In this document: piece after piece, positions 22,020-40,773 of the stretch
Layout: each line of letters begins with the position of its first letter
How positions within the stretch are numbered: the first letter of the stretch is position 1
DNA from: Pelagibius sp.
Lineage (GTDB): Bacteria; Pseudomonadota; Alphaproteobacteria; Kiloniellales; Kiloniellaceae
Direction: 5' to 3'
Length of the DNA stretch: 54,455 nt
NCBI RefSeq assembly: GCF_028289705.1
Contig: NZ_JANQOI010000193.1
Coordinates: 1 to 54,455, forward strand
The notes under the pieces: generated by a model
Told to the model about the DNA's origin: nothing
The model's database searches: none
What the model saw: the letters and a program-made list of their open reading frames with translations, nothing else
Program-made: the position numbers and the translations under genes

Positions 22020-22606
22020 GCGAGACGCTCCACGACTTCACCGTCGAGGTGCCGCTCTGGCGGCCCCGCGTCCGGCCCATCGACCTGGCGGAAGCAACGC
22101 CCGACCAGCTTGATGCGCTGAAGGTGACGCCTTCCAACACCAAGGTGTCAGACTACGTGCTGGTGCTGGCCAACGACGTCGAGACCCTGAAGGCCCGCAC
22201 CCCGCTGTTCAACGCCATCATGTACAACCGCGGCGGTCTGGGCCGCAGCGGGCGGGAGTTGGGCGCCGTCGGCGCCTCCGTGGTCAACCGCTGCATCTAC
22301 TGCGCCGCGGTGCACGCCAGCCGCTACAACCAGCTCACCAAGACCGAAGACCACATGCGCGAGGTCTTCGCCCAGGGTGAGGCCGCAACGCTGCCGTCCC
22401 GCGAAGCGGCGATCTACGACTTCGCGGTGAAGCTCTCCAAGACTCCGAGCGAAGCGACGGAAGCCGACATGCAGGCCCTGCGCGACGCGGGTTTGAACGA
22501 CGAGGAAATTCTCGACCTTGTGCTTTCCGCCGCCCTCTTCGGCTGGGCCAACCGCCTGATGCACCTGCTGGGCGACCCTGTCGCCAGGCAAGCGGAGGAA
22601 GCGTGA
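22016..22606 (+). CDS. AhpD-like alkylhydroperoxidase-domain protein
   Basis: This 196-residue protein carries the AhpD core motif NRCIYCAAVH with C93, C96 and H100. These are the thiol pair and histidine that reduce peroxides in AhpD and related peroxidases (Avi_7169-like families, from memory). The ATG overlaps the stop of the CMD-domain gene. Next to a flavin monooxygenase, which may leak hydrogen peroxide or make a hydroperoxide, a detoxifying or peroxide-using step is reasonable. It is cytoplasmic, with no signal peptide. Confidence 0.82.
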   Translation: MSETLHDFTVEVPLWRPRVRPIDLAEATPDQLDALKVTPSNTKVSDYVLVLANDVETLKARTPLFNAIMYNRGGLGRSGRELGAVGASVVNRCIYCAAVHASRYNQLTKTEDHMREVFAQGEAATLPSREAAIYDFAVKLSKTPSEATEADMQALRDAGLNDEEILDLVLSAALFGWANRLMHLLGDPVARQAEEA

Positions 22607-23757
22607 TGGCCGGGCCGGACCAGAGCCTCTCCGTCGGGATCGCCGGGGCCGGGGCCATCGCCTATGGGGCGGCGGCCTTTCTCGAAGACGCAGGGCACAA
22701 AGCGAGCCTCTGGTCGCCGTCGGGCGCGCGCACCAAGCGCCTGGCCGCGGGCGAGCCGCTGGTGGCCAGCGGCGCCGTCGAAGGCCGCTTCCATCCCCGC
22801 ATCGCCGGCTCCGCCGCCGATCTGGTGGAAGGCGCCGATGTCATCCTGGTCGCTCTGCCGGGTTACGGCCACAAGGCGGTCTTCGACGCCATCGCGCCGC
22901 ACCTGCGCGCCGGACAGACGGTGCTGATCTCCTCTCACGCCTCTCTCGGCGCACTGTATCTCTCACGACGTCTGGCGGAGCGCGGGCTGGTGCTGCCCAT
23001 CGTCGCCTGGGGCACCACCATCACCTCCGGGCGCCAGCCGAGCCCGGTGGAGGCGCAGGTGAACACGATCCGCAGCAAGGTCGACATCTGCACCCTGCCG
23101 GAGTCCATGAGCGCCCAGGGCCTGGCCTGCTGCCGGGCGCTGTTCGGCGACCGTTTCGTCGAGCGCGACGGCCTGCTCGCCATCACCCTCAGCAACCTCA
23201 ACCCGCAGAACCACATGGGCATCGCGCTCTGCAACATGACCCGCATGGAGCGCGGCGAGGCCTGGGACCAGGGGCTGAACGTGACGCCGAACGTCGGGCG
23301 CCTGCTGGAGGCGCTGGACCGCGAGCGCCTGGCGATCTGCAAGGCCCTCGGCCTTTCGGTGCGCACCATCTTCGAACACTTCCACCTTTCCTTTCACGTC
23401 CCGCAGGACAGCGTCTCGGCCATGAACCAGGAGATGCACCGCCAGGGGCGCGGCGGGACCGGCCCGGCCACCGCCGACAGCCGCTATGTCACCGAAGACG
23501 CGCCCTACGGCCTGCTGATGACGGTGAAGCTGGGCGAGCTGGCCGGCCGTCCGGCGCCGCTGCACCGCGCCGGGGTCGAGATCTTTTCCGCGCTCTACGG
23601 GCGCGACTTCTTTTCCGAGAACCAGCTTCTGGAGGCGCTGGCGCTCGATGCGCTGTCCCTGGATGAGCTCAAGCGGCTCGCCCGGGACGGCTATCCCACC
23701 GGCGGGCAAAGGCCGACGCAAGAGCGGCCGCAGGTCCGGCCGGAACGCGCGGGGTGA
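22606..23757 (+). CDS. NAD/NADP octopine/nopaline dehydrogenase family protein
   Basis: This 383-residue protein belongs to the opine dehydrogenase family. VGIAGAGAIAYGAAAFL near residue 9 is the NAD(P)-binding motif, and the C-terminal helical domain holds NPQNHMGIALCNMTR with the conserved histidine near the catalytic site. Family members join an amino acid and a keto acid by reductive amination, or split the resulting opine. TGATG couples it to the AhpD-like gene, and GGAGGAA precedes the start; a GTG three bases earlier is the alternative. The adjacent importer suggests use of imported opine-like compounds, but biosynthesis is not excluded. Confidence 0.87.
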   Translation: MAGPDQSLSVGIAGAGAIAYGAAAFLEDAGHKASLWSPSGARTKRLAAGEPLVASGAVEGRFHPRIAGSAADLVEGADVILVALPGYGHKAVFDAIAPHLRAGQTVLISSHASLGALYLSRRLAERGLVLPIVAWGTTITSGRQPSPVEAQVNTIRSKVDICTLPESMSAQGLACCRALFGDRFVERDGLLAITLSNLNPQNHMGIALCNMTRMERGEAWDQGLNVTPNVGRLLEALDRERLAICKALGLSVRTIFEHFHLSFHVPQDSVSAMNQEMHRQGRGGTGPATADSRYVTEDAPYGLLMTVKLGELAGRPAPLHRAGVEIFSALYGRDFFSENQLLEALALDALSLDELKRLARDGYPTGGQRPTQERPQVRPERAG

Positions 23758-28023: not shown

Positions 28024-30271
<2,248 letters not shown>

Positions 30272-30683: not shown

Positions 30684-33362
30684 ATGTCCTCTGAGACGAT
30701 CAAGGCAAGACGCTCGTACCAGGCCTGGGTCGCCAACGAGACCATGGAGGACTACTCCCTTCGCTACGCCGCGACCGCGTTCCGAAAATGGCGGCCCTTC
30801 GTCATAACCAACACCGCCCTGGGCGGCATCTCCTTCCTGGCCCTCGAGGCGATCGGCGGCGCGATCACGCTGAGCTATGGGTTCAGCAATGCGCTTCCCG
30901 CAATCCTCGTCGTCTGCACCCTCGTCTTCATCACCAGTCTGCCCATCGCCTACTACTCGAGCAAATACAACATCGACATGGACCTGCTGACGCGCGGTGC
31001 GGGCTTCGGCTACATCGGCTCGACCATCACGTCGCTCATCTACGCCTGCTTCACGTTCATATTCTTCGCTCTCGAGGCGGCGATCATGGCGCAGGCCTTG
31101 GAAATCTATTTCGGTCTTCACATCGTTCTCGGGTACATCCTGTCCTCGCTCGTCATCATTCCGATCACGTTTCTCGGCGTCACCCTGATCAGCAGGCTGC
31201 AACTGGTTACCCAGCCGATCTGGGTCATCATGCTGATCGCGCCGTTCGTGTTCATCTTTCACAAGGAACCCGAGGTCCTGTCCGACTGGATCGCCTTCGC
31301 CGGCGCCCGCGGCAGCGAGTCCGGGTTCAATTACCTTTACTTCGGCGCGGCGACCGGGGTCCTGTTCTCGCTGGTCGTGCAGATCGGTGAACAGGTCGAC
31401 TACCTTCGTTTCCTGCCCGACAAGACGCAGAAAAACAGACTCAGTTGGTGGGCCGCGGTCATCTCGGCAGGCCCGGGGTGGATCGTGATCGGCGGGCTCA
31501 AGATCCTGGCCGGCAGCCTCCTGGCCGTACTCGCCGTAAGCAGCGGCCTCGCCTTCGACGATGCGGTCGAGCCCATCCACATGTACATCCAGGCCTATGG
31601 ATACGTGAGCAGCGACCCTTGGATCGTCCTCACCGCCGCAACCGTTTTCGTGCTCATCTCGCAGGTCAAGATCAACGTGACCAATGCCTACGCGGGCTCG
31701 CTCGCGTGGTCCAACTTCTACTCGCGGGTGACCCACTTCCACCCCGGGCGCGTCGTCTGGCTCGTGTTCAACATCCTCATCTCGCTTCTCTTGATGCTCC
31801 TCGGCATCTTCGAGACCCTGGAGACCGTGCTCGCCGTCTATTCCAACCTGGCGATCGCATGGATTGGCGCGATCTTCGCCGACCTCACGGTTCTGAAGCC
31901 GCTGGGCATTAGCCCGTCCTATGTCGAGTTCAAGCGCGCACACCTCTATAACGTCAACCCGGTGGGCTGCGGTGCCATGGCCATCGCCTCCCTGGTCTCG
32001 GTCCCGGCCTACGGCGGCGTCTTTGGGGAGGTGGCCGAGGCCTACTCTGCGGGGCTGTCGCTGGCCACCGCCTTCGTCGTGGCGATCGCCATCGGTGTCG
32101 TAACCCGGGGCAAGTATTACATCGCCCGGGAGGACTCCCTGCCGCGCCGGCTCAAGGGGCAACACATGGTCCGCTGCTCGATCTGCGCGTATACCTACGA
32201 GCCCCAGGACATGGCCTATTGTCCCTTCTATCAGGGTGCCATCTGTTCGCTGTGCTGCAGCCTCGACGCCCACTGTCACGACGTCTGCAAACAACCGGAG
32301 CACGTGCGCGTCGCGGCCGTCGCGAGCCCCGGCGGCGCGCATTTCCGGCGCATGATCCAGCCACATCTGGCGCAACGGCTGGCCAAGTTCCTCGGGGTCT
32401 TTCTTGCGCTCGCCGTGGTGACGGCCGCCGTCTTCCTCTTGGCCTACCGGATGATCGAACTCGATGGAACCTTCGCCCAGGCGGACAACGCGCGGCTGCT
32501 GCTGCGGCTCTACGTCGCCAGCCTGGTTCTGATCTGTATCGGTGCCTGGTGGATTGTGCTGTCGCACGAAAGCCGCGAGCTGGCCGAGCGCGATCTTGTC
32601 AGCTCCTTGGAAAAGCTCTCCGAGACCCGGCAGGAACTGATGCAAAGCGAACGCCTGGCGACCATCGGCCAGCTCACCGCAACGGTCAGCCACGAGCTGC
32701 GCAACCCCCTTGGTACGCTGGTCTCGTCGGTCTCCGTGCTGCACAAGTACCTCGACCGGTCGGAGCCGCCGGTACGGGACGAACTGGACCGCATGCAACG
32801 CAACATCAAGCGTTGCGTGCGGATTATCGAAGACCTGCTCGAGTTCTCACGCGACCAGAGCGTTCACGTCCGCCCGGTCCCTATCGACCGCTGGATCGCG
32901 TCTGAATTGGAGGAACAGGAGCTCCCGGACTCCATAGAGCTGCGTACCGAACTCCGCTCGAACGCGACCGTGGTCATAGACAGCGAGAAGTTCCGTCAGG
33001 TGCTGGTGAACCTGCTGCAGAACGCGCATCACGCCATCGCACTGCGCGACGACACGGGGCCGCCCAATGGAGCGTTGACCGTCGCGACACGGGCCAACGG
33101 GGAACGCTTCGAGCTTCAGATCTCGGACGACGGCTGCGGTATCCGTCCCGACTCGAAGGACCGGATCTTCAAGCCCCTGTTCAGTACCAAGGCGTTCGGT
33201 GTCGGGCTCGGGCTGCCGTTGGTCAAACGCATCATGGAAGAGCACGGTGGCGGCATCGATGTGCAAAGCCAATGGGGCAATGGAACGACCGTCATGCTCT
33301 GGCTGCCGCTCGCGCCCGAGGGCACGGCGGCGGAGCGCACATCGAAGATCTTGAGATCATGA
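30684..33362 (+). CDS. NCS1-type permease / cysteine-rich module / sensor histidine kinase fusion
   Basis: This 892-residue fusion protein starts at the ATG at 30684, eight bases after GGGAGG. Residues 15-485 are a complete NCS1-type permease (cytosine, allantoin, hydantoin class) with about 12 membrane segments, opening EDYSLRYAATAFRKW. Residues 498-535 hold eight cysteines (CX2C-X11-C-X7-C-X2-CC-X5-C-X3-C), probably a zinc or redox module. Two more membrane helices follow (about 555-625). The kinase has a HisKA box with phospho-acceptor His670 in SHELRNP, N-box LVNLLQNAHHA, DDGCGI and GVGLGLP. It is probably a receptor derived from a transporter, by analogy with CbrA. The ligand is probably a nucleobase, hydantoin or amide, which is inference. 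Confidence 0.85.
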   Translation: MSSETIKARRSYQAWVANETMEDYSLRYAATAFRKWRPFVITNTALGGISFLALEAIGGAITLSYGFSNALPAILVVCTLVFITSLPIAYYSSKYNIDMDLLTRGAGFGYIGSTITSLIYACFTFIFFALEAAIMAQALEIYFGLHIVLGYILSSLVIIPITFLGVTLISRLQLVTQPIWVIMLIAPFVFIFHKEPEVLSDWIAFAGARGSESGFNYLYFGAATGVLFSLVVQIGEQVDYLRFLPDKTQKNRLSWWAAVISAGPGWIVIGGLKILAGSLLAVLAVSSGLAFDDAVEPIHMYIQAYGYVSSDPWIVLTAATVFVLISQVKINVTNAYAGSLAWSNFYSRVTHFHPGRVVWLVFNILISLLLMLLGIFETLETVLAVYSNLAIAWIGAIFADLTVLKPLGISPSYVEFKRAHLYNVNPVGCGAMAIASLVSVPAYGGVFGEVAEAYSAGLSLATAFVVAIAIGVVTRGKYYIAREDSLPRRLKGQHMVRCSICAYTYEPQDMAYCPFYQGAICSLCCSLDAHCHDVCKQPEHVRVAAVASPGGAHFRRMIQPHLAQRLAKFLGVFLALAVVTAAVFLLAYRMIELDGTFAQADNARLLLRLYVASLVLICIGAWWIVLSHESRELAERDLVSSLEKLSETRQELMQSERLATIGQLTATVSHELRNPLGTLVSSVSVLHKYLDRSEPPVRDELDRMQRNIKRCVRIIEDLLEFSRDQSVHVRPVPIDRWIASELEEQELPDSIELRTELRSNATVVIDSEKFRQVLVNLLQNAHHAIALRDDTGPPNGALTVATRANGERFELQISDDGCGIRPDSKDRIFKPLFSTKAFGVGLGLPLVKRIMEEHGGGIDVQSQWGNGTTVMLWLPLAPEGTAAERTSKILRS

Positions 33363-33411: not shown

Positions 33412-35883
33412 ATGAATGACCAAGTACACACCACGGGGGTGGACTTGATCCGTCGCGTCCTGGTCGTCGATGACGACCATGACTTCGCCGACAGCCTCTG
33501 CCATTTCCTCAGGCTGGAAGGCTACGAGGCGAAGCAGGCTTACAGCATCACCGCTGCCCAGCAGGCGCTGGACGACTACCCCGCCGAGGTCGCACTGATC
33601 GACATCCGTATGGGAGAACAGAGCGGCCTCAGTCTCGTTTCGGACTTTCGCGGGCGCAGTCCCGAGGTCACCTGCATCCTCATGACCGCGTTCGCATCGG
33701 CGGACAGTGCGATCGAGGCGCTGCAGAAGGGCGCCTACGACTACCTCTGCAAGCCGTTCTACCCCGAGACCCTGATCGCCACGCTGGAGCGTTGTTTCGA
33801 GAGAATGTCGCTCGCTCGCGGCCGCGAGGAAGCCGAGGCAGCCCTGCGTCGCCGCAACCGGGAACTGGAGGAACTCAACGCCCGCCTGCGCATGGTCGTC
33901 GGCAGCATGCCGGCGCTGTCCGCCTGCACAACGCTGCGTCAACTCTGTGCCGCCGTGCTCGAGCAGGTGGCGGCGAACATGGACGCGCGCAAGGGCGCCG
34001 TCTATCTGAAGGAAGGCGACAACCTCGTCTGTAAGCACGAGCTTGATTCCGGGCACCGTGAGACGATTGCCCTTCCTCTTCCGCCGGACGACCCTTTCCA
34101 GCAGGTGCTCACCTCGCGGCGGCCAGTTTTCTCGCTCGGTCCCGGGGCTGCCGCCCAAGCCTTGCCCGCGGGCTGGCCGACGGCGACGCGTGGGGCATTG
34201 CTGACCTTTCCGATCACCGGCGCGAGGCAGGCCCCGGTTGGCGTCTTGACCGTGCAGGCGGCCGAAGACAAGACCTTCACGCAGCAGGACCGCGAGTTCG
34301 GCCTGATCCTCGTGTCACTCGCCAGCGAGGCGATCAGGCTCGTCCAGGCGCACGAGCAGCTGCTTTGGAGCGAGGAGCGCCTGCGCGAAGTCATCGACAA
34401 CTCACCCTCGCTGATCTCGCTGAAGGATCTGGAGGGCCGCTTCGTCGTCGTCAACAGACGCTTCGAGGAATGGCACGGATACGGGCCTGAGGAGGCGCTC
34501 GGCAAAACTTCCCAGGACCTTTTTCCGGACGAGGTCGCCGCCATCTATGCGGCGCGATACCAGGAGGCGCTCAGCAGCGGCAAGGTCGTCGAAGAGGAGA
34601 TCGAGATTCCCTTCGCCGACGGCTCCGTGCATTCGGTGCTGGTTACGAAGTTCCCGGTGCCGGGCGCGCATGGGCAGCCCGTAGGCATCGGCACGATCGC
34701 GACCGACCTGACCGATCGCAGGCGCGCGGAAGAGCAGCTGCGTCAGGCACAAAAAATGGAGGCCCTGGGCCAGCTCACGGGCGGAATTGCGCACGACTTC
34801 AACAATCTGTTGGCGGTCATTTCGGGCAACCTGGACCTGATCCAGGATGACGTTGCGGATACGGACTTGTCCGAGATTGCCGAGGATGCCCAGGCTGCGG
34901 CACGCAGTGGCGCGGAACTGACGCACCGGCTGCTCGCATTCGGGAGACGGCAGACGCTGCGCCCGCAACCGACGGTCGCGGGCAAGCTGGTCACAGGCAT
35001 GTCCAGAATGCTGGAGCGGACGCTGGGCGAGAACATCCAGATCGAAATTGCCCTGCCCGACGGACTGTGGCCCATAGACGTCGACAGGAACCAGCTGGAG
35101 ACGAGCCTCCTCAATCTCGCCATCAATGCCCGGGACGCCATGCCGGACGGCGGGGAGCTCACGATCGTGTCGAGAAATGTCACGCTAGACCACGGTTACA
35201 CCGACCGGCATGCAGCGGTCGACACCGGTGACTATGTCCTGATCGCAGTTAAGGATAGCGGGACCGGCATGTCACCGGAGGTGGCGGAGCGCGCCATACA
35301 GCCGTTCTTCACCACCAAGGAGGTCGGCCAGGGCAGCGGGCTGGGGCTCAGCATGGTCTACGGCTTCGCCAAGCAGTCCGGCGGCCATCTGGAGATCTCG
35401 AGCAAGCTCGGCAGCGGCACCGCCGTCAGACTCTATCTGCCCAGGGCAACCAAAGGTGCGGTCGAAGTTGAAACCGATGCGCAATGGATGTCCGAGGCGA
35501 ACGGCAAGGGCGAGCGCATCCTCCTGGTCGAGGACCAGACCGACGTCCGCAAGCTGGCCCGAAGGCTCCTCACCCGGCTCGGCTACGTGGTGTTCGAGGC
35601 GCGCGACGGCGTAGCCGCATTGTCGCTTCTGGACGATCTGGTCGATGTGGATCTGCTGTTCACGGACATTATGCTGCCGGGAGGAATCGGCGGGGAGCAG
35701 CTTGCCCGGGAGGCGCGGGCCCGCTGTCCGAAGCTGAAAGTCCTCTATAGCTCCGGCTACGCGCGCAGCGCCGCCCGTTCGATCAACGACCCGGATGGCG
35801 CGATTCCGCTGGTCAACAAGCCGTTCGTGATGAAGGACCTTGCCGGCGCGGTTCGGCGCACGCTCCAAGCCGGCGAAGCATAA
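33412..35883 (+). CDS. Hybrid sensor kinase: REC-GAF-PAS-HisKA-HATPase-REC
   Basis: This 823-residue soluble hybrid kinase has an N-terminal receiver (residues 14-130, phosphorylatable D64 in LIDIRM, KPF near 117), a coiled linker, a GAF-like domain (about 155-310), a PAS domain (about 325-445, ending in ATDLTDRRRAEEQL) and a kinase core with His461 in IAHDFNN. The ATPase follows with LLNLAINARDAM and GLGLSMVYGF, and a C-terminal receiver (about 700-815) carries D752 in FTDIMLPG. It has no membrane segments. It follows the permease-kinase gene by 49 bp, so its first receiver is the likely target of that kinase, with the output passed to the OmpR-type regulator next door. The partner order is inference. 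Confidence 0.88.
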   Translation: MNDQVHTTGVDLIRRVLVVDDDHDFADSLCHFLRLEGYEAKQAYSITAAQQALDDYPAEVALIDIRMGEQSGLSLVSDFRGRSPEVTCILMTAFASADSAIEALQKGAYDYLCKPFYPETLIATLERCFERMSLARGREEAEAALRRRNRELEELNARLRMVVGSMPALSACTTLRQLCAAVLEQVAANMDARKGAVYLKEGDNLVCKHELDSGHRETIALPLPPDDPFQQVLTSRRPVFSLGPGAAAQALPAGWPTATRGALLTFPITGARQAPVGVLTVQAAEDKTFTQQDREFGLILVSLASEAIRLVQAHEQLLWSEERLREVIDNSPSLISLKDLEGRFVVVNRRFEEWHGYGPEEALGKTSQDLFPDEVAAIYAARYQEALSSGKVVEEEIEIPFADGSVHSVLVTKFPVPGAHGQPVGIGTIATDLTDRRRAEEQLRQAQKMEALGQLTGGIAHDFNNLLAVISGNLDLIQDDVADTDLSEIAEDAQAAARSGAELTHRLLAFGRRQTLRPQPTVAGKLVTGMSRMLERTLGENIQIEIALPDGLWPIDVDRNQLETSLLNLAINARDAMPDGGELTIVSRNVTLDHGYTDRHAAVDTGDYVLIAVKDSGTGMSPEVAERAIQPFFTTKEVGQGSGLGLSMVYGFAKQSGGHLEISSKLGSGTAVRLYLPRATKGAVEVETDAQWMSEANGKGERILLVEDQTDVRKLARRLLTRLGYVVFEARDGVAALSLLDDLVDVDLLFTDIMLPGGIGGEQLAREARARCPKLKVLYSSGYARSAARSINDPDGAIPLVNKPFVMKDLAGAVRRTLQAGEA

Positions 35884-35905: not shown

Positions 35906-36643
35906 TCAATCCGACTGCAACGCTGCCGTGAACATGTACCCGGTGCCCCGGACCGTCTTGATGAGCCGCGGGTTCCGCGGGTCGTCGTCGAGCTTGCGCC
36001 GCAGCTTGCCGATCAGAACGTCGATGCTCCGGTCGTAGGGCTGCCAATAGCGGTTGGCAATGAGCTCGAGAATCTGATCCCGGGACAGCACCCGCGCCGG
36101 CCGCTGCGCCAAGGCGGCGAGCAGCTCGAACTCATAGCTGGTCAGCTCGACCTCTTCGCCATCGGGCGACACGAGGTCGCGCTGCGCGAGATCCATGGTC
36201 CATCCCGCAAAGCGCAGGATCGAGGGAGAACCCGCGCCGACTGCTGCGTCCGGCTCCCGCGCGGCCGAGCGGCGCAGAACGCTGCGTATGCGGGCGAGCA
36301 GCTCACGCCGGTCGAAGGGCTTGGTGATGTAATCGTCGGCGCCGAGTTCCAGCCCCACAACCTTGTCCACGCTTTCGCTTTTGCCCGTCAGGATGATGAG
36401 CGAAACGTTCGACTCCGCCCGCAGGCGCCGCGCCAGGGTGAGCCCATCCTCGCCGCCCGGAAGCCGCAAATCGAGAATCACCAGATCGATTGGCTTTGCC
36501 TTCAGCGCCCGCCACATGGCGCGGCCGTTCGGCGCCGAGTCCACCAAAAATCCTTCAGCGGTCAGGAAGCGCGTCAATAGTCGGCAGATGCGTGGGTCGT
36601 CGTCCACGACCAGAACGCGCGGCGACTCATCGGCCTGGCTCAC
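35906..36643 (-). CDS. OmpR-family response regulator, GTG start
   Basis: This 245-residue regulator has a receiver domain (residues 9-125) with acidic pocket VVDDDP, D58 in LVILDLRLPG and the KPFDRRE lysine, followed by a C-terminal winged helix (about 150-240) ending RLIKTVRGTGYMF. I place the start at the GTG at 36643, six bases after GAGGG. An ATG at 36733 would add 30 codons with unusually A/T-rich third positions and no family match. It is convergent with the hybrid kinase gene (22 bp apart) and divergent from the LuxR-type gene. Tandem TTTGTAA repeats at 36775-36791 are a likely binding site for it. Confidence 0.87.
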   Translation of the reverse strand: MSQADESPRVLVVDDDPRICRLLTRFLTAEGFLVDSAPNGRAMWRALKAKPIDLVILDLRLPGGEDGLTLARRLRAESNVSLIILTGKSESVDKVVGLELGADDYITKPFDRRELLARIRSVLRRSAAREPDAAVGAGSPSILRFAGWTMDLAQRDLVSPDGEEVELTSYEFELLAALAQRPARVLSRDQILELIANRYWQPYDRSIDVLIGKLRRKLDDDPRNPRLIKTVRGTGYMFTAALQSD

Positions 36644-36774
36644 GTTGGCCCTCGGGAGCTCGATTGGTTGACCGTCTATACGCAACTCTCGGATTGCTCG
36701 AGAACGGGCATTCGCAGTCTTTGGATCAATCATTGACCGAATTGAACCACGCTCGGAACCAGAATTCGAGCTGG

Positions 36775-36791: not shown

Positions 36792-36971
36792 TTGGCTTCT
36801 CCGGCACGCAAAGCCCTTACATGGCGTCGCTATCATCCGCCGTGGGGACGAGCCCACCCGTCCAACAAGAGCGGTTTTCCGTGTCCGCACGTGTGGCTGT
36901 GCGGAACTGGCAATCGAGAAAAGGGCTGCTTTCAGAAGGCGGTGAGGGCAGGCAGGTCTGGGGATACGGCG

Positions 36972-38129
36972 ATGGGACACGTCAACGGCAGCACCAATAG
37001 TGACCTTGGGCAGCTCATCGACGCCCTCTATGACACCGCGCTCGCGGTCATGGACGAATGTGCGTGGTGCAACGTCCTTCCCAAGCTGGGCCACGCCTTG
37101 GACGCCTCGGCGGGCAGCTTCATGACCCATGACCTCGCCGCCGGCGATGGCGCGCTGCGGCACAGGTTCAACATTCAAACCAAATACTATGATGCCTATA
37201 ACGATGGGCTGTCTGCGTTGGACCCGTGGATGACGTCGGCCGCATTGTATGAGGAAGGCGCGGTTATCGCCTGCGAGGATGTCTTGTCGGAACGGGAGTT
37301 AAAGCAGACCGAGTTCTACAAGAGGTATCTGCAACCGCAGGCCCTGTTGCACCATCTATGTGGCGTCATCTCCTGCGAGGGTGCGGAGGCGACCGTCATC
37401 AGCTTCATGCGTCCGGCCCATGCCGCCCACTTCGGCCGCGAGGAAAGGGTCGCGCTGTCGCGGCTCCTGCCGCACTTGAAGCGAACGATGAAAGTTCGCG
37501 ACGAGGTCGTGCGCGATCGGCACGCGCACGAGAGCCTCGCCGAGATCATCGATCACCTGCCGGTCGCATTTATTGTGGTTGACCACACGGGACGCGTGAA
37601 TTTTTGTAACCGCGTGGCAAACGACATGTTCGCCTGCGGGGACGGTCTTCGGTTGAGAACCGAGGGCGTCATCGCCACGGCCTCCTCCAAGAACACCGCG
37701 GATCTGCGGCAACTCATCGCCGATACGGCAGGTGCCGCGCCAAATGGCAGGGACCCGACTTCAGGAGAGCATTTCATCATTTCCAGGGGGCCGGAACGTT
37801 TGCCGCTCATCTGTGTGATGTATCGCGTAAACGGATCGGGGCATCACGACGATCAGATTCAAGCCCCGGCCGTCGCGTTGGTCATCAAGGATCCGCTTGT
37901 GGACAGCGGCGAGGGACTCACGGACTTCGCCCGTGCGTACAAGCTCACCAACGCCGAGGCGCGCCTGGTCTGCTTGCTTACCGACGGCCACGGCCTCTTC
38001 GATGCGGGACACAAACTCGGCATCACCAAGAACACCGCGCGAACGCACATGCGCAACATCTATTCCAAGGTGGGAACAAACCGTCAGGCCGACCTGGTCC
38101 GTTTGCTCGGGCGCTTTTCGGTGTTTTGA
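36972..38129 (+). CDS. LuxR-type HTH regulator with PAS-like sensor region
   Basis: This 385-residue protein has a C-terminal LuxR-type helix-turn-helix (about residues 315-380: LTNAEARLVCLLTDG ... ITKNTARTHMRNIYSK) and a central PAS-like region near residue 195 (HLPVAFIVVDHTGRVNFCN). The N-terminal 180 residues are helical and cysteine-containing, with no family I can name. It lacks a receiver domain, so it is probably ligand-responsive rather than phosphorylated. The ATG at 36972 is preceded by a weak GGGGA; a GTG at 36942 is possible. It lies directly upstream of the formamidase operon on the same strand. Confidence 0.82.
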   Translation: MGHVNGSTNSDLGQLIDALYDTALAVMDECAWCNVLPKLGHALDASAGSFMTHDLAAGDGALRHRFNIQTKYYDAYNDGLSALDPWMTSAALYEEGAVIACEDVLSERELKQTEFYKRYLQPQALLHHLCGVISCEGAEATVISFMRPAHAAHFGREERVALSRLLPHLKRTMKVRDEVVRDRHAHESLAEIIDHLPVAFIVVDHTGRVNFCNRVANDMFACGDGLRLRTEGVIATASSKNTADLRQLIADTAGAAPNGRDPTSGEHFIISRGPERLPLICVMYRVNGSGHHDDQIQAPAVALVIKDPLVDSGEGLTDFARAYKLTNAEARLVCLLTDGHGLFDAGHKLGITKNTARTHMRNIYSKVGTNRQADLVRLLGRFSVF

Positions 38130-38260: not shown

Positions 38261-38409
38261 CCAGCCCTCTGCGATTGTCCGTAACCTGTCACTTCGATGC
38301 TTGATCGCCACCAGTGGTGACGTGGCCCGGCAGCCACCCTGCACTTGGCGGCTCAAGACAGGAGAGAGCGGCACACCACAATCACCGACCGAGAAAGGGA
38401 GGCCTTGCC

Positions 38410-39648
38410 ATGGCGAAGACCGTGTTCCGAGCCGATATGAACAAGTGGCCGGAAGAGCAGGACATCAAAACACACAATCGCTGGCATCACGACATACCCA
38501 TCGTCGAGAACTTCAAGCCCGGCGACGAGTTCCGCGTCGAGTGCTACGACTGGACCGGCGGCCAGATCAAGAACGACGATTCCGCCAACGACATTCGCGA
38601 CGTCGATCTGACCAAGGTGCACTACCTCAGCGGCCCGTTCGGGTGCGAGGGCGCGGAGCCCGGCGATCTTCTGGTTGTCGACATCAACGACATCGGCTGG
38701 CTGGAAGATTCGCAGTGGGGCTTCACCGGCATATTCGCGCTGGAGAACGGCGGCGGCTTTCTCGACAGGCACTTCCCAGAGGCGAAGAAGGCCTGCTGGG
38801 ACTTCAGTGGTGTCTACGCCTCCTCGCGTCACATTCCCGGCGTCCGCTTCCCCGGCATGATTCATCCCGGCCTGATCGGCACCCTGCCGTCCGAGGAGCT
38901 GCTGGCCACCTGGACCAAGCGCGAGGCCGCGCTGTTCGACACCGATCCGGACCGGGTGCCCCCATTGTGCACGCTTCCGGACGGGCTTGCCGGCACCGAC
39001 ACGGCCCTCATGGGCCAACTCACCGGGGCCGCGGCCGAGAAGGCCGGCCAGGAAGGGGCGCGGACCGTTCCCGGCCGCGAGCACGGCGGCAACTGCGACA
39101 TCAAGAACCTGTCGCGCGGGTCGAAGGTCTACTTCCCCGTCTACCAGAAGGGCGGTGGCCTCTCGATGGGCGACATCCATTGGTCGCAGGGTGACGGCGA
39201 GATCACCTTCTGCGGCGCCATCGAGATGGCCGGTTGGATCGACATCGGTATCGACATCATCAAGGATGGTGTCTCGAAGTACGGCATCACCAACCCTATC
39301 TTCAGGCCGAGCCCCATCGAGCCACACTACGACGACTATCTGATCTTCGAAGGTGTTTGCGTCGACGAGCACACCGGCGAACAAAAATACCTGGACGCCA
39401 CCGTGGCCTATCGCCGCGCCTGCCTGAACGCCGTCGAGTACTTGAAGAAGTTCGGATACTCGGGTCAGCAGGCCTACATGATCCTAGGCACCGCCCCGGT
39501 CGAAGGGCGGATCAGCGGGATCGTGGACATTCCAAACGCGTGCTGCACCGTCGCCATTCCGACCGGGATCTTCGACTTCGATATTCGGCCCAACGCCAAC
39601 GGGCCGACGAAGGCGATCTCCGGCGTCGACGTGGCCGCTACCAGTTGA
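38410..39648 (+). CDS. fmdA: Formamidase (FmdA/AmdA family)
   Basis: This 412-residue protein has the length and sequence of bacterial formamidase (FmdA_AmdA family), which hydrolyses formamide, and less well other short amides, to ammonia and the acid. VVDINDIGW, the FPGMIHPGLIGTLPS region, HGGNCDIKNLSRGSKV and LSMGDIHWSQGDGE are family blocks that build the metal-dependent active site. GAAAGGGAGG stands eight bases before the ATG. It is followed by an AmiS/UreI-type channel and FmdB, the usual amide-use set, and preceded by several regulators and operator-like repeats. Confidence 0.95.
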   Translation: MAKTVFRADMNKWPEEQDIKTHNRWHHDIPIVENFKPGDEFRVECYDWTGGQIKNDDSANDIRDVDLTKVHYLSGPFGCEGAEPGDLLVVDINDIGWLEDSQWGFTGIFALENGGGFLDRHFPEAKKACWDFSGVYASSRHIPGVRFPGMIHPGLIGTLPSEELLATWTKREAALFDTDPDRVPPLCTLPDGLAGTDTALMGQLTGAAAEKAGQEGARTVPGREHGGNCDIKNLSRGSKVYFPVYQKGGGLSMGDIHWSQGDGEITFCGAIEMAGWIDIGIDIIKDGVSKYGITNPIFRPSPIEPHYDDYLIFEGVCVDEHTGEQKYLDATVAYRRACLNAVEYLKKFGYSGQQAYMILGTAPVEGRISGIVDIPNACCTVAIPTGIFDFDIRPNANGPTKAISGVDVAATS

Positions 39649-39814
39649 GCTGAAAGTCGTGGGGGCGCGGGCCAACCGCGCCACCATCTTTCGGCAGCCG
39701 GCGGGGCAGGTTTCGTAGCCGCGATCATTGGGCCGGCCACGCCCGCCAAACGAGGCGTGGCACGAGCCCGACGGTGAACGAGCAAACGCCGGTTGGGAAA
39801 GGGAGGACAAGAAC

Positions 39815-40354
39815 ATGTTGCTGGGCATGGTGTTGCTCTACGTCGGCGCCGTTCTGTTCTGTAACGGCCTGTGGGTCATGGGGCGCATCGGCGACCGGGA
39901 GATTACGGTCATCAATGTCTTCGTCGGCGGCCTGACCCTGATTGCCGCACTGTTCCTGGCCTTTGGGCCGGGGGCCGATGCAGGCTCGATACGGGCTGCG
40001 GCCTATACTCTGCTGTTTACGTTCACCTACTTCTGGGTCGCGTGGAACAGGTGGAACGGGGCCGACGGCCGCGGTCTGGGATGGTTCTGCTTTTTTGTCG
40101 GCATCACGGTGATCCCGATCACCCTGGTCTCGCTGGGCGGCGCGGTCAGCCTGTGGGACTGGTGGTTCACGCTGTGCTGGGCCTCCTGGGCGGTTCTCTG
40201 GCTGCTGTTTTGGGCGCTGCTTGCGCTCAACAAGGAAAACCTCACCCAGTTCACCGGGGCGTTCTGCGCCCTACAGGGTATCTACACCGGCTGGATACCG
40301 GGATTCATGCTGCTGAACGGCTGGATCGGCCCGCTCGCGGAGGGTGGAGCCTGA
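39815..40354 (+). CDS. AmiS/UreI family amide/urea channel
   Basis: This 179-residue membrane protein has six hydrophobic segments and begins MLLGMVLLYVGAVLFCNGLW, typical of AmiS/UreI proteins. Those form inner-membrane channels for urea or short amides. AFCALQGIYTGWIPGF near the end is a conserved segment. AAAGGGAGGACAAG precedes the ATG. Located 166 bp after fmdA and before fmdB, it should let formamide or acetamide reach the amidase. Confidence 0.92.
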   Translation: MLLGMVLLYVGAVLFCNGLWVMGRIGDREITVINVFVGGLTLIAALFLAFGPGADAGSIRAAAYTLLFTFTYFWVAWNRWNGADGRGLGWFCFFVGITVIPITLVSLGGAVSLWDWWFTLCWASWAVLWLLFWALLALNKENLTQFTGAFCALQGIYTGWIPGFMLLNGWIGPLAEGGA

Positions 40355-40446: not shown

Positions 40447-40773
40447 ATGCCTTTGTACAATTACGACTGCGCGCAGTGCGGCGAGTTCGACGACTGGCGC
40501 AGCATGAGCGAGGCCAGCGAGCCGAGCGTCTGTCCTGACTGCGGCGATCTGGCGCCGCGCGCCGTTTCGGCGCCGAATCTGGCCATGATGCCGCGGCACA
40601 ATCGCATCGCCCACGAGCGCAACGAGAAGTCGGCACACGAGCCGAGGTTTATGTCCAAGGCAGAGCAACAGGCCATAGGCCGGAAACGGTCTGGGCATGA
40701 CCACCACCATCACGGGCATGGCCACGGCCACGCCCATGGTTCGTCGGGCCGCCCCTGGATGATCGGCCATTGA
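40447..40773 (+). CDS. fmdB: FmdB-type zinc-ribbon protein with histidine-rich tail
   Basis: This 108-residue protein has the FmdB/CxxC_CxxC_SSSS zinc ribbon, with C8, C11, C29 and C32 in MPLYNYDCAQCG and CPDCGD. The family is linked to amide-use operons, and its role (regulator or chaperone) is not settled. The last 25 residues are rich in histidine (HDHHHHGHGHGHAHG), like metal-storage tails of UreE, HypB or SlyD. Formamidase may need metal, so a metal-delivery role is possible but is inference. GAGGAG lies before the ATG. It is the last gene of the operon. Confidence 0.85.
   Translation: MPLYNYDCAQCGEFDDWRSMSEASEPSVCPDCGDLAPRAVSAPNLAMMPRHNRIAHERNEKSAHEPRFMSKAEQQAIGRKRSGHDHHHHGHGHGHAHGSSGRPWMIGH

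Follow-up and report, generated by a model that had tools for sequence, protein, structure and literature searches.

The 54,455-nucleotide contig of Pelagibius sp. analysed here (the window) contains one open reading frame in which a membrane permease appears to be joined to a histidine kinase, which raises the questions of whether the fusion is genuine, what kind of permease it contains, and whether this permease imports a compound or senses it. The frame lies on the plus strand at 30684–33362; it begins with an ATG at 30684, shortly preceded by GGAGG, stops at 33362 and encodes 892 residues, with the start, stop and length given in an initial annotation of this DNA. An NCS1-related permease domain (residues 1–490; 30684–32153) is followed by a cysteine module (residues 495–540; 32166–32303), a two-helix membrane hairpin (residues 562–630; 32367–32573) and a HisKA plus HATPase_c kinase core (residues 662–877; 32667–33314). 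Pfam placed HisKA at residues 662–725 (E 1e-14) and HATPase_c at 766–877 (E 8e-23). The motif SHELRNP at 669–675, which includes His670, and those at 776–784, 815–820 and 839–845 are intact; we take these to be the H, N, G1 and G2 boxes, respectively. The protein has the DHp and CA domains with the four boxes of a HisKA sensor kinase, and the kinase core described in the initial annotation was confirmed by both Pfam and the motif check.

The region between permease and kinase was also as first described, with a cysteine-rich module and two more membrane helices. The cysteines are located at positions 498, 501, 513, 521, 524, 525, 531 and 535, and hydropathy analysis revealed two hydrophobic segments, at 561–594 and 601–630. 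In the AlphaFold model, the second hairpin helix extends without interruption as far as residue 657, immediately ahead of the kinase. The cysteine module is presumably cytoplasmic, because lysine and arginine outnumber acidic residues in the stretch 474–561 (11 versus 7) and the number of preceding helices is even. It may bind metal; a profile search of the PDB returned, over the cysteine stretch, zinc-finger-like proteins at E values of 3 or higher only, which serves as a lead and not as evidence. Pfam detected no PAS domain before the kinase in the fusion protein, and some Sulfurimonas relatives do have one.

The fusion is real. The initial annotation had named a frameshift, a sequencing error joining two genes, or homologues encoded separately as observations that would overturn it, and the relatives were found to be overwhelmingly fused; joined genes and frameshifts were ruled out by the long frames conserved among them. 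The two nearest relatives share 80% and 75% identity with residues 1–650 and have frames of 891 and 909 amino acids; in the first (L020, the same gene as L003) the kinase part is also similar, at 64% identity. In an even draw of Pseudomonadota, 52 of 398 genomes gave 58 matches, and all 57 close matches, including that of Pelagibius itself, lay in frames 894 or more codons long from stop to stop, the sole short frame being that of a 29% relative. Matches were present in 12 of 292 cyanobacterial genomes, 11 of them in frames of 963–1072 codons and one free-standing (the query locus itself), and, with a free-standing permease as the query, in 26 of 385 genomes of the window's class, as 25 frames of at least 999 and one fragment.

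A scan of one genome per species detected at least 570 relatives (597 stretches), of which the best 80 were kept for reading; these are the best matches and not a random draw. By the motif check, these best 80 comprised 67 kinases, 3 GGDEF proteins, 2 free-standing permeases, 3 genes cut at contig ends (L047, L063 and L090), 2 with broken frames (L022 and L060) and 3 unclassified proteins. The two broken frames are interrupted 3′ of the hairpin helices, as an assembly error or gene decay might produce, and in L022 the kinase continues in a different frame; all five broken or truncated genes were excluded from the residue counts below. Among the unclassified proteins, L045 is a GGDEF-EAL protein by Pfam; the other two, L082 and L095, escaped the H-box pattern but contain a G2 box.

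Relatives are widespread in Pseudomonadota and also occur in cyanobacteria, Campylobacterota and Myxococcota; none was found in the viral contigs scanned. Matches were present in 530 plasmid records, 342 of them from Klebsiella, and 15 plasmid regions were examined in detail. In one of these (L006), the fusion adjoins urtABCDE and a formamidase gene, and the plasmid also bears several resistance genes. Pfam analysis of nine relatives revealed different outputs: plain kinases (L029 and L033, as well as L030, in which Pfam detected the ATPase domain alone), kinase-REC proteins (L037, and L089, which has two RECs), a PAS-kinase-REC-HPt protein (L049), and PAS-GGDEF (L046), PAS-GGDEF-EAL (L048) and GGDEF-EAL (L045) proteins. 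The last three are from Sulfurimonas, where the permease-cysteine-hairpin module precedes a GGDEF or GGDEF-EAL output and none of the amide or urea genes searched for lies nearby. The variety of outputs, from histidine kinase to phosphorelay to GGDEF/EAL, suggests that the permease-cysteine-hairpin unit behaves as a portable input module, by analogy with SLC5-STAC in CbrA-like proteins.

The assignment of the permease to NCS1, proposed in the initial annotation, was upheld by profile-profile comparison and by fold and found no support in Pfam. The domain matched no Pfam or NCBIfam model, and PDB sequence searches were also empty. PF02133 gave no match anywhere in the Pelagibius genome, none in the fusion protein at E ≤ 1, and none in the 19 relatives examined, even at E ≤ 10, a setting at which the HMMER filters discard most weak matches. 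In contrast, comparison of the permease profile by hhalign with an NCS1 profile, built from 31 proteins matching PF02133, gave a probability of 99.4% (E 2e-21), the alignment covering 418 columns; the same permease profile scored 0.4% against an SSF control of 14 proteins, and the NCS1 and SSF profiles scored 20% against each other. An AlphaFold model of residues 1–658, based on a 56-sequence alignment (mean pLDDT 82, pTM 0.78), contains, by our own reading, twelve membrane helices in the permease, the first broken at 48–51. The top five PDB chains in Foldseek were all Mhp1 or CodB (E 2e-9 to 4e-7; TM-score 0.67–0.76 by target length), and other LeuT-fold transporters ranked behind. The profile match and the modelled Mhp1/CodB fold therefore indicate that the permease is a divergent NCS1 relative lying outside the Pfam model. 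Membership of the SSF (CbrA-type) family was ruled out by the 0.4% profile match and the absence of an SSF match by Pfam, and Pfam detected no ammonium transporter domain in the fusion protein, whose fold is instead that of NCS1.

The permease differs from Mhp1 and CodB not only in its attached kinase and its lack of a PF02133 match. We take Gln42, Trp117, Gln121, Trp220 and Asn318 of Mhp1 to be substrate-site residues, and Ser312 and Thr313 to form its sodium site. By hhalign and HMMER alignment, Asn318 is conserved as N334, Gln42, Trp117 and Gln121 correspond to F51, F127 and E131, and Trp220 could not be placed owing to a gap. The positions of Ser312 and Thr313 are occupied by Lys329, present in 56 of 56 aligned sequences, and the near-invariant Ile330; the sodium-site residues are absent. 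The lysine at the sodium-site serine position suggests that the permease is sodium-independent.

The genes beside the fusion point to both partners and ligand. The next gene (33412–35883, plus strand) encodes a REC-GAF-PAS-HisKA-HATPase-REC hybrid kinase by Pfam, and its first REC is likely the receiver of the fusion kinase. It is followed by an OmpR-type response regulator on the opposite strand (35906–36733; Pfam), whose position is conserved. These two adjoining genes, with their conserved order, are the candidate partner regulators. Further downstream on the plus strand are a PAS-LuxR-type regulator (36792–38129; start uncertain, GerE match just under the Pfam cut-off), weak relatives of which (26–29%) occur near the kinase in six betaproteobacterial loci, the formamidase FmdA (38395–39648; NF045496, 713 bits against a cut-off of 500; PF03069), an AmiS/UreI family amide/urea channel (39809–40354; PF02293, E 7e-58) and an FmdB-type zinc-ribbon protein (40447–40773; TIGR02605, 52.5 bits against a cut-off of 31.3).

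This association extends to the relatives. Up to 10 kb on each side of the best 80 of at least 570 loci was searched for fmdA, urt, amiS, amiE-like and ureC genes at a threshold of at least 80 bits, and 67 of the 80 had such genes: fmdA at 54 loci, urt at 52, amiE-like genes at 21 (a query that also matches AmiF-type formamidases), amiS at 12 and ureC at 3. Two layouts were recognised. Long hybrids (about 1110–1160 amino acids) have urtABCDE and, in most cases, fmdA in their vicinity; short kinases of the Pelagibius type (about 875–921 amino acids) lie near fmdA and amiS. The fusion kinase, the REC-kinase gene, the opposite OmpR-type regulator and nearby fmdA/amiS were present at all eight alphaproteobacterial AmiS-type genome loci, a set that includes L022 with its broken fusion frame. 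Paracoccus L011 also has the Pelagibius gene order, but with fmdA and amiS on the other side. The GAF-PAS part of the 33412–35883 product had matches in L020 and L021 only. A LuxR-type regulator occurs instead at four betaproteobacterial AmiS-type loci and on the short contigs L030 and L031.

Within the window's order, 7 of 58 genomes carry formamidase-type fmdA (E < 2e-174), and 3 of 58 carry the fusion; the two sets have 55 genomes in common, including all three with the fusion. In each of these three, an fmdA of this type lies no more than 10 kb from the fusion; the other four of the seven fmdA genomes have no fusion, and fmdA is accordingly often present without one. None of the amide or urea genes searched for was found at 13 of the 80 loci (4 cyanobacterial, 5 Sulfurimonas, 2 Myxococcota and 2 betaproteobacterial). 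Seven of these 13 loci span at least 18 kb, and short contigs are therefore not the whole explanation; the ligand may thus differ at the 13 loci. The family mostly lies beside genes for the use of formamide, small amides and urea, and its location suggests that it probably senses these compounds.

The initial annotation had connected the fusion with an amide, a hydantoin or a pyrimidine breakdown product. Gene context, as far as it was covered by the search for amide and urea genes, supports the amide link and points to formamide, other short amides and urea, not to a hydantoin or a product of pyrimidine breakdown. A ring ureide such as hydantoin or allantoin, or a pyrimidine, would be the ligand if the domain behaved as characterised NCS1 transporters do; the NCS1 relationship itself speaks for this, as does a distant Rhodococcus relative at 29% identity beside hydantoinase/oxoprolinase genes. 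We nevertheless regard such a ligand as highly improbable, given that, among the best 80 of at least 570 loci, 67 lie near formamidase, urt, AmiS, amidase or urease genes (the set searched for) and that W117, Q121 and Q42 of Mhp1 are exchanged in the fusion.

We propose, with a probability of roughly 0.6, that in the fusion protein an NCS1-type transporter has been made into a membrane receptor that detects short amides, urea or both; formamide would be the first candidate ligand at the Pelagibius locus. The ligand would bind the central site of the permease-like domain. The movement, centred on TM1, by which a transporter would bring it across the membrane would be relayed through the cysteine module on the cytoplasmic side and then through the hairpin. 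The motion of the hairpin would enter the coiled coil before His670 and change autophosphorylation. Phosphate would then be transferred to the first REC of the hybrid kinase encoded immediately downstream, and from there to the OmpR-type regulator, the proposed controller of fmdA, the AmiS/UreI channel and fmdB.

Relatives without a kinase bear on the predicted loss of transport. Twelve distinct free-standing permeases of 535–575 amino acids, picked by similarity and not randomly, were examined. Two others were left uncounted: Acinetobacter johnsonii L236, 100% identical to L005, and the distant Rhodococcus L010 (7959–9386), which lacks the cysteine module, adjoins the hydantoinase/oxoprolinase genes mentioned above and is possibly another branch of the family. 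Eight of the twelve genes lie near urease (L005 and L229), formamidase (L071, L092, L191, L230 and L234) or amidase (L232 and L191) genes; no such genes were seen near L231 and L233, and the L235 record is unannotated. In Klebsiella pneumoniae, a free-standing member annotated as a cytosine permease (L229, 6956–8563) lies directly 3′ of ureG in the urease cluster and is likely a urea permease. The same record has an IS110-type transposase where ureC would be expected.

Fused and free-standing proteins differ at the break of TM1 (residues 47–58, including F51, L54 and E55; 30822–30857). In a first set of 131 fused and 5 free proteins, four columns separated the two: column 51 (F in all fused versus Y in all free), column 54 (L in 123, M in 5 and C in 3 fused versus D in all free), column 169 (I in all fused versus L in all free) and column 337 (A in 127, S in 3 and G in 1 fused versus S in all free). 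E55 was present in 131 of 131 fused and none of the 5 free proteins. In a second set, all seven new free proteins had Y51, D54, L169 and S337; all 24 fused proteins had F51, E55 and A337, with D54 in none and L169 in one. At least three of these 24 come from genomes already used, and the rows in general are not independent. Over both sets, Y51/D54 occurred in 12 of 12 free proteins and F51/E55 in 155 of 155 fused proteins, D54 in none of the latter. E131, Q233, E236, K329, N331 and N334 are identical in all 155 fused and 12 free proteins, and the distant L010 deviates at positions 236 and 329. With a shared core and a short distinguishing stretch at the TM1 break, the switch should be testable by residue exchange.

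These proteins could instead be transceptors resembling CbrA, in which the permease has kept its uptake of formamide or urea and the kinase is modulated by transport. The permease is complete, its core residues equal those of the free-standing permeases, and CbrA, the most thoroughly studied analogue, according to the available part of PMC7096432, both transports histidine and signals. We nonetheless judge this rather unlikely: D54, present in all 12 free-standing permeases, is missing from all 155 fused proteins, which have E55 instead; dedicated uptake genes lie near most fused genes (urt at 52 and amiS at 12 of the best 80 of at least 570 loci); and two loci carry a free-standing permease near the fused one. 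In Acinetobacter L015 the two genes are divergent. In Methylovirgula L191 (10284–16617), receptor, response regulator and free-standing permease stand in a row, the permease being the next gene but one after the fused copy, with fmdA, fmdB and an amidase gene near. As far as sequence can indicate, the difference at the TM1 break favours a receptor over an importer.

The signal could also be cytoplasmic, with the cysteines sensing metal or redox state, or the kinase reading ammonia status, and the permease an inert anchor. All 131 fused proteins counted retain the eight cysteines, and CbrA signalling survives removal of the transporter domain, as described in the part of PMC7096432 at hand. Against this, four of the cysteines are also kept in nine of the twelve kinase-less permeases, three of which have all eight (the four are lost in three actinobacterial proteins), and the strict conservation of the permease core is unlike that of an anchor. 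We therefore give a cytoplasmic signal little credence and retain a receptor with its ligand site in the permease.

In a tree of 68 rows, from which three long-branch rows and the outgroup were omitted, a single branch divides free from fused proteins (support 90/78). The split lies on one branch, and the residue differences therefore represent one historical event. Another tree, with five free rows and a very distant outgroup, placed the free proteins at the base, a kind of placement on which the program warns. There are 22 fixed differences between the fused proteins and the distant free group; at these positions, the three free proteins most closely related to the fused group are as fused at 16, as free at 4 and mixed at 2. 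All four fixed differences at 50–55 are among the six that do not match the fused state, a pattern that resembles a functional mark at the predicted binding site and is not proof of one. Our best reading is that a urea or short-amide transporter was on a single occasion recruited as the input domain of histidine kinases, and that in Sulfurimonas it came to serve GGDEF/EAL proteins. Tentatively, and at somewhat below even odds, NCS1-type transporters of urea or short amides, a family so far unrecognised and including the permease after Klebsiella ureG, would have given rise once to non-transporting receptors, through a change at the break of TM1 and elaboration of the cysteine module; these receptors would drive histidine kinases, phosphorelays and c-di-GMP enzymes.

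Among known systems, the closest likeness is to CbrA and CrbS of Pseudomonas (SLC5-STAC-PAS-histidine kinase), which, in the portions of the sources available, also combine a full LeuT-fold transporter and a HisKA kinase in one chain, separated by a small linker module. The CbrA SLC5-STAC structure is reported in PMC13022988, and diguanylate cyclases can likewise have an SLC5-STAC unit attached (PMC7096432), both papers being available in part. In contrast, CbrA and CrbS use an SLC5/SSF transporter where the fusion has NCS1, and are linked to histidine or acetate where the fusion has an amide/urea context; the stretch that holds STAC and PAS in CbrA holds the cysteine module and two helices in the fusion. 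In Ks-Amt5 of Kuenenia, as presented in the accessible part of PMC5764959, an ammonium transporter has become a receptor and possesses a binding site that uptake proteins lack. Ks-Amt5 is likewise a transporter recruited as a sensor, but has the Amt fold, is trimeric, binds ammonium and has no PAS, HAMP or STAC linker, whereas the fusion combines an NCS1 fold with a cysteine module and lies near amide/urea genes.

The metabolic genes have precedents. The fmdCABDEF cluster of Methylophilus methylotrophus contains formamidase and amide/urea uptake genes and is induced by formamide and urea; unlike the Pelagibius locus, it has, in the available text of the review (PMC10781810), a putative positive regulator and no sensor kinase named. 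Clusters of urt and fmdA are described in PMC13209695 and PMC13296017. The accessible part of the former names no kinase for its cluster, and a urea-gene figure in that of the latter includes one gene with no label beyond hybrid histidine kinase/response regulator; this gene may belong to the family. Literature searches, with most subscription journals outside their reach, found no NCS1-type transporter-kinase among the papers listed, and the term NCS1 is absent from the available text of PMC11109136 and PMC8871633, consulted for other transporter-kinases. The receptor family is apparently widespread and undescribed. A supposed link to Sinorhizobium SMa0113 was dropped, the relative lying in an unannotated record labelled pSymB.

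Few bacterial examples bear on the open question of how a transporter is converted into a receptor, and this family contains both forms, sometimes at one locus, as in Methylovirgula L191 and Acinetobacter L015. If our reading is correct, the fusion family, with at least 570 matches in the one-genome-per-species collection, supplies a sensor for loci of amide and urea use, and the free-standing members form a new class of likely urea/amide permeases. Elsewhere in the window, a peroxidase gene (28024–30198, minus strand; PF00141), KatG-like by size, is divergent from the fusion gene at a distance of 485 bases, and a gene for an octopine/nopaline dehydrogenase-type protein (22603–23757, plus strand; PF02317) lies just 5′ of ABC transporter genes.
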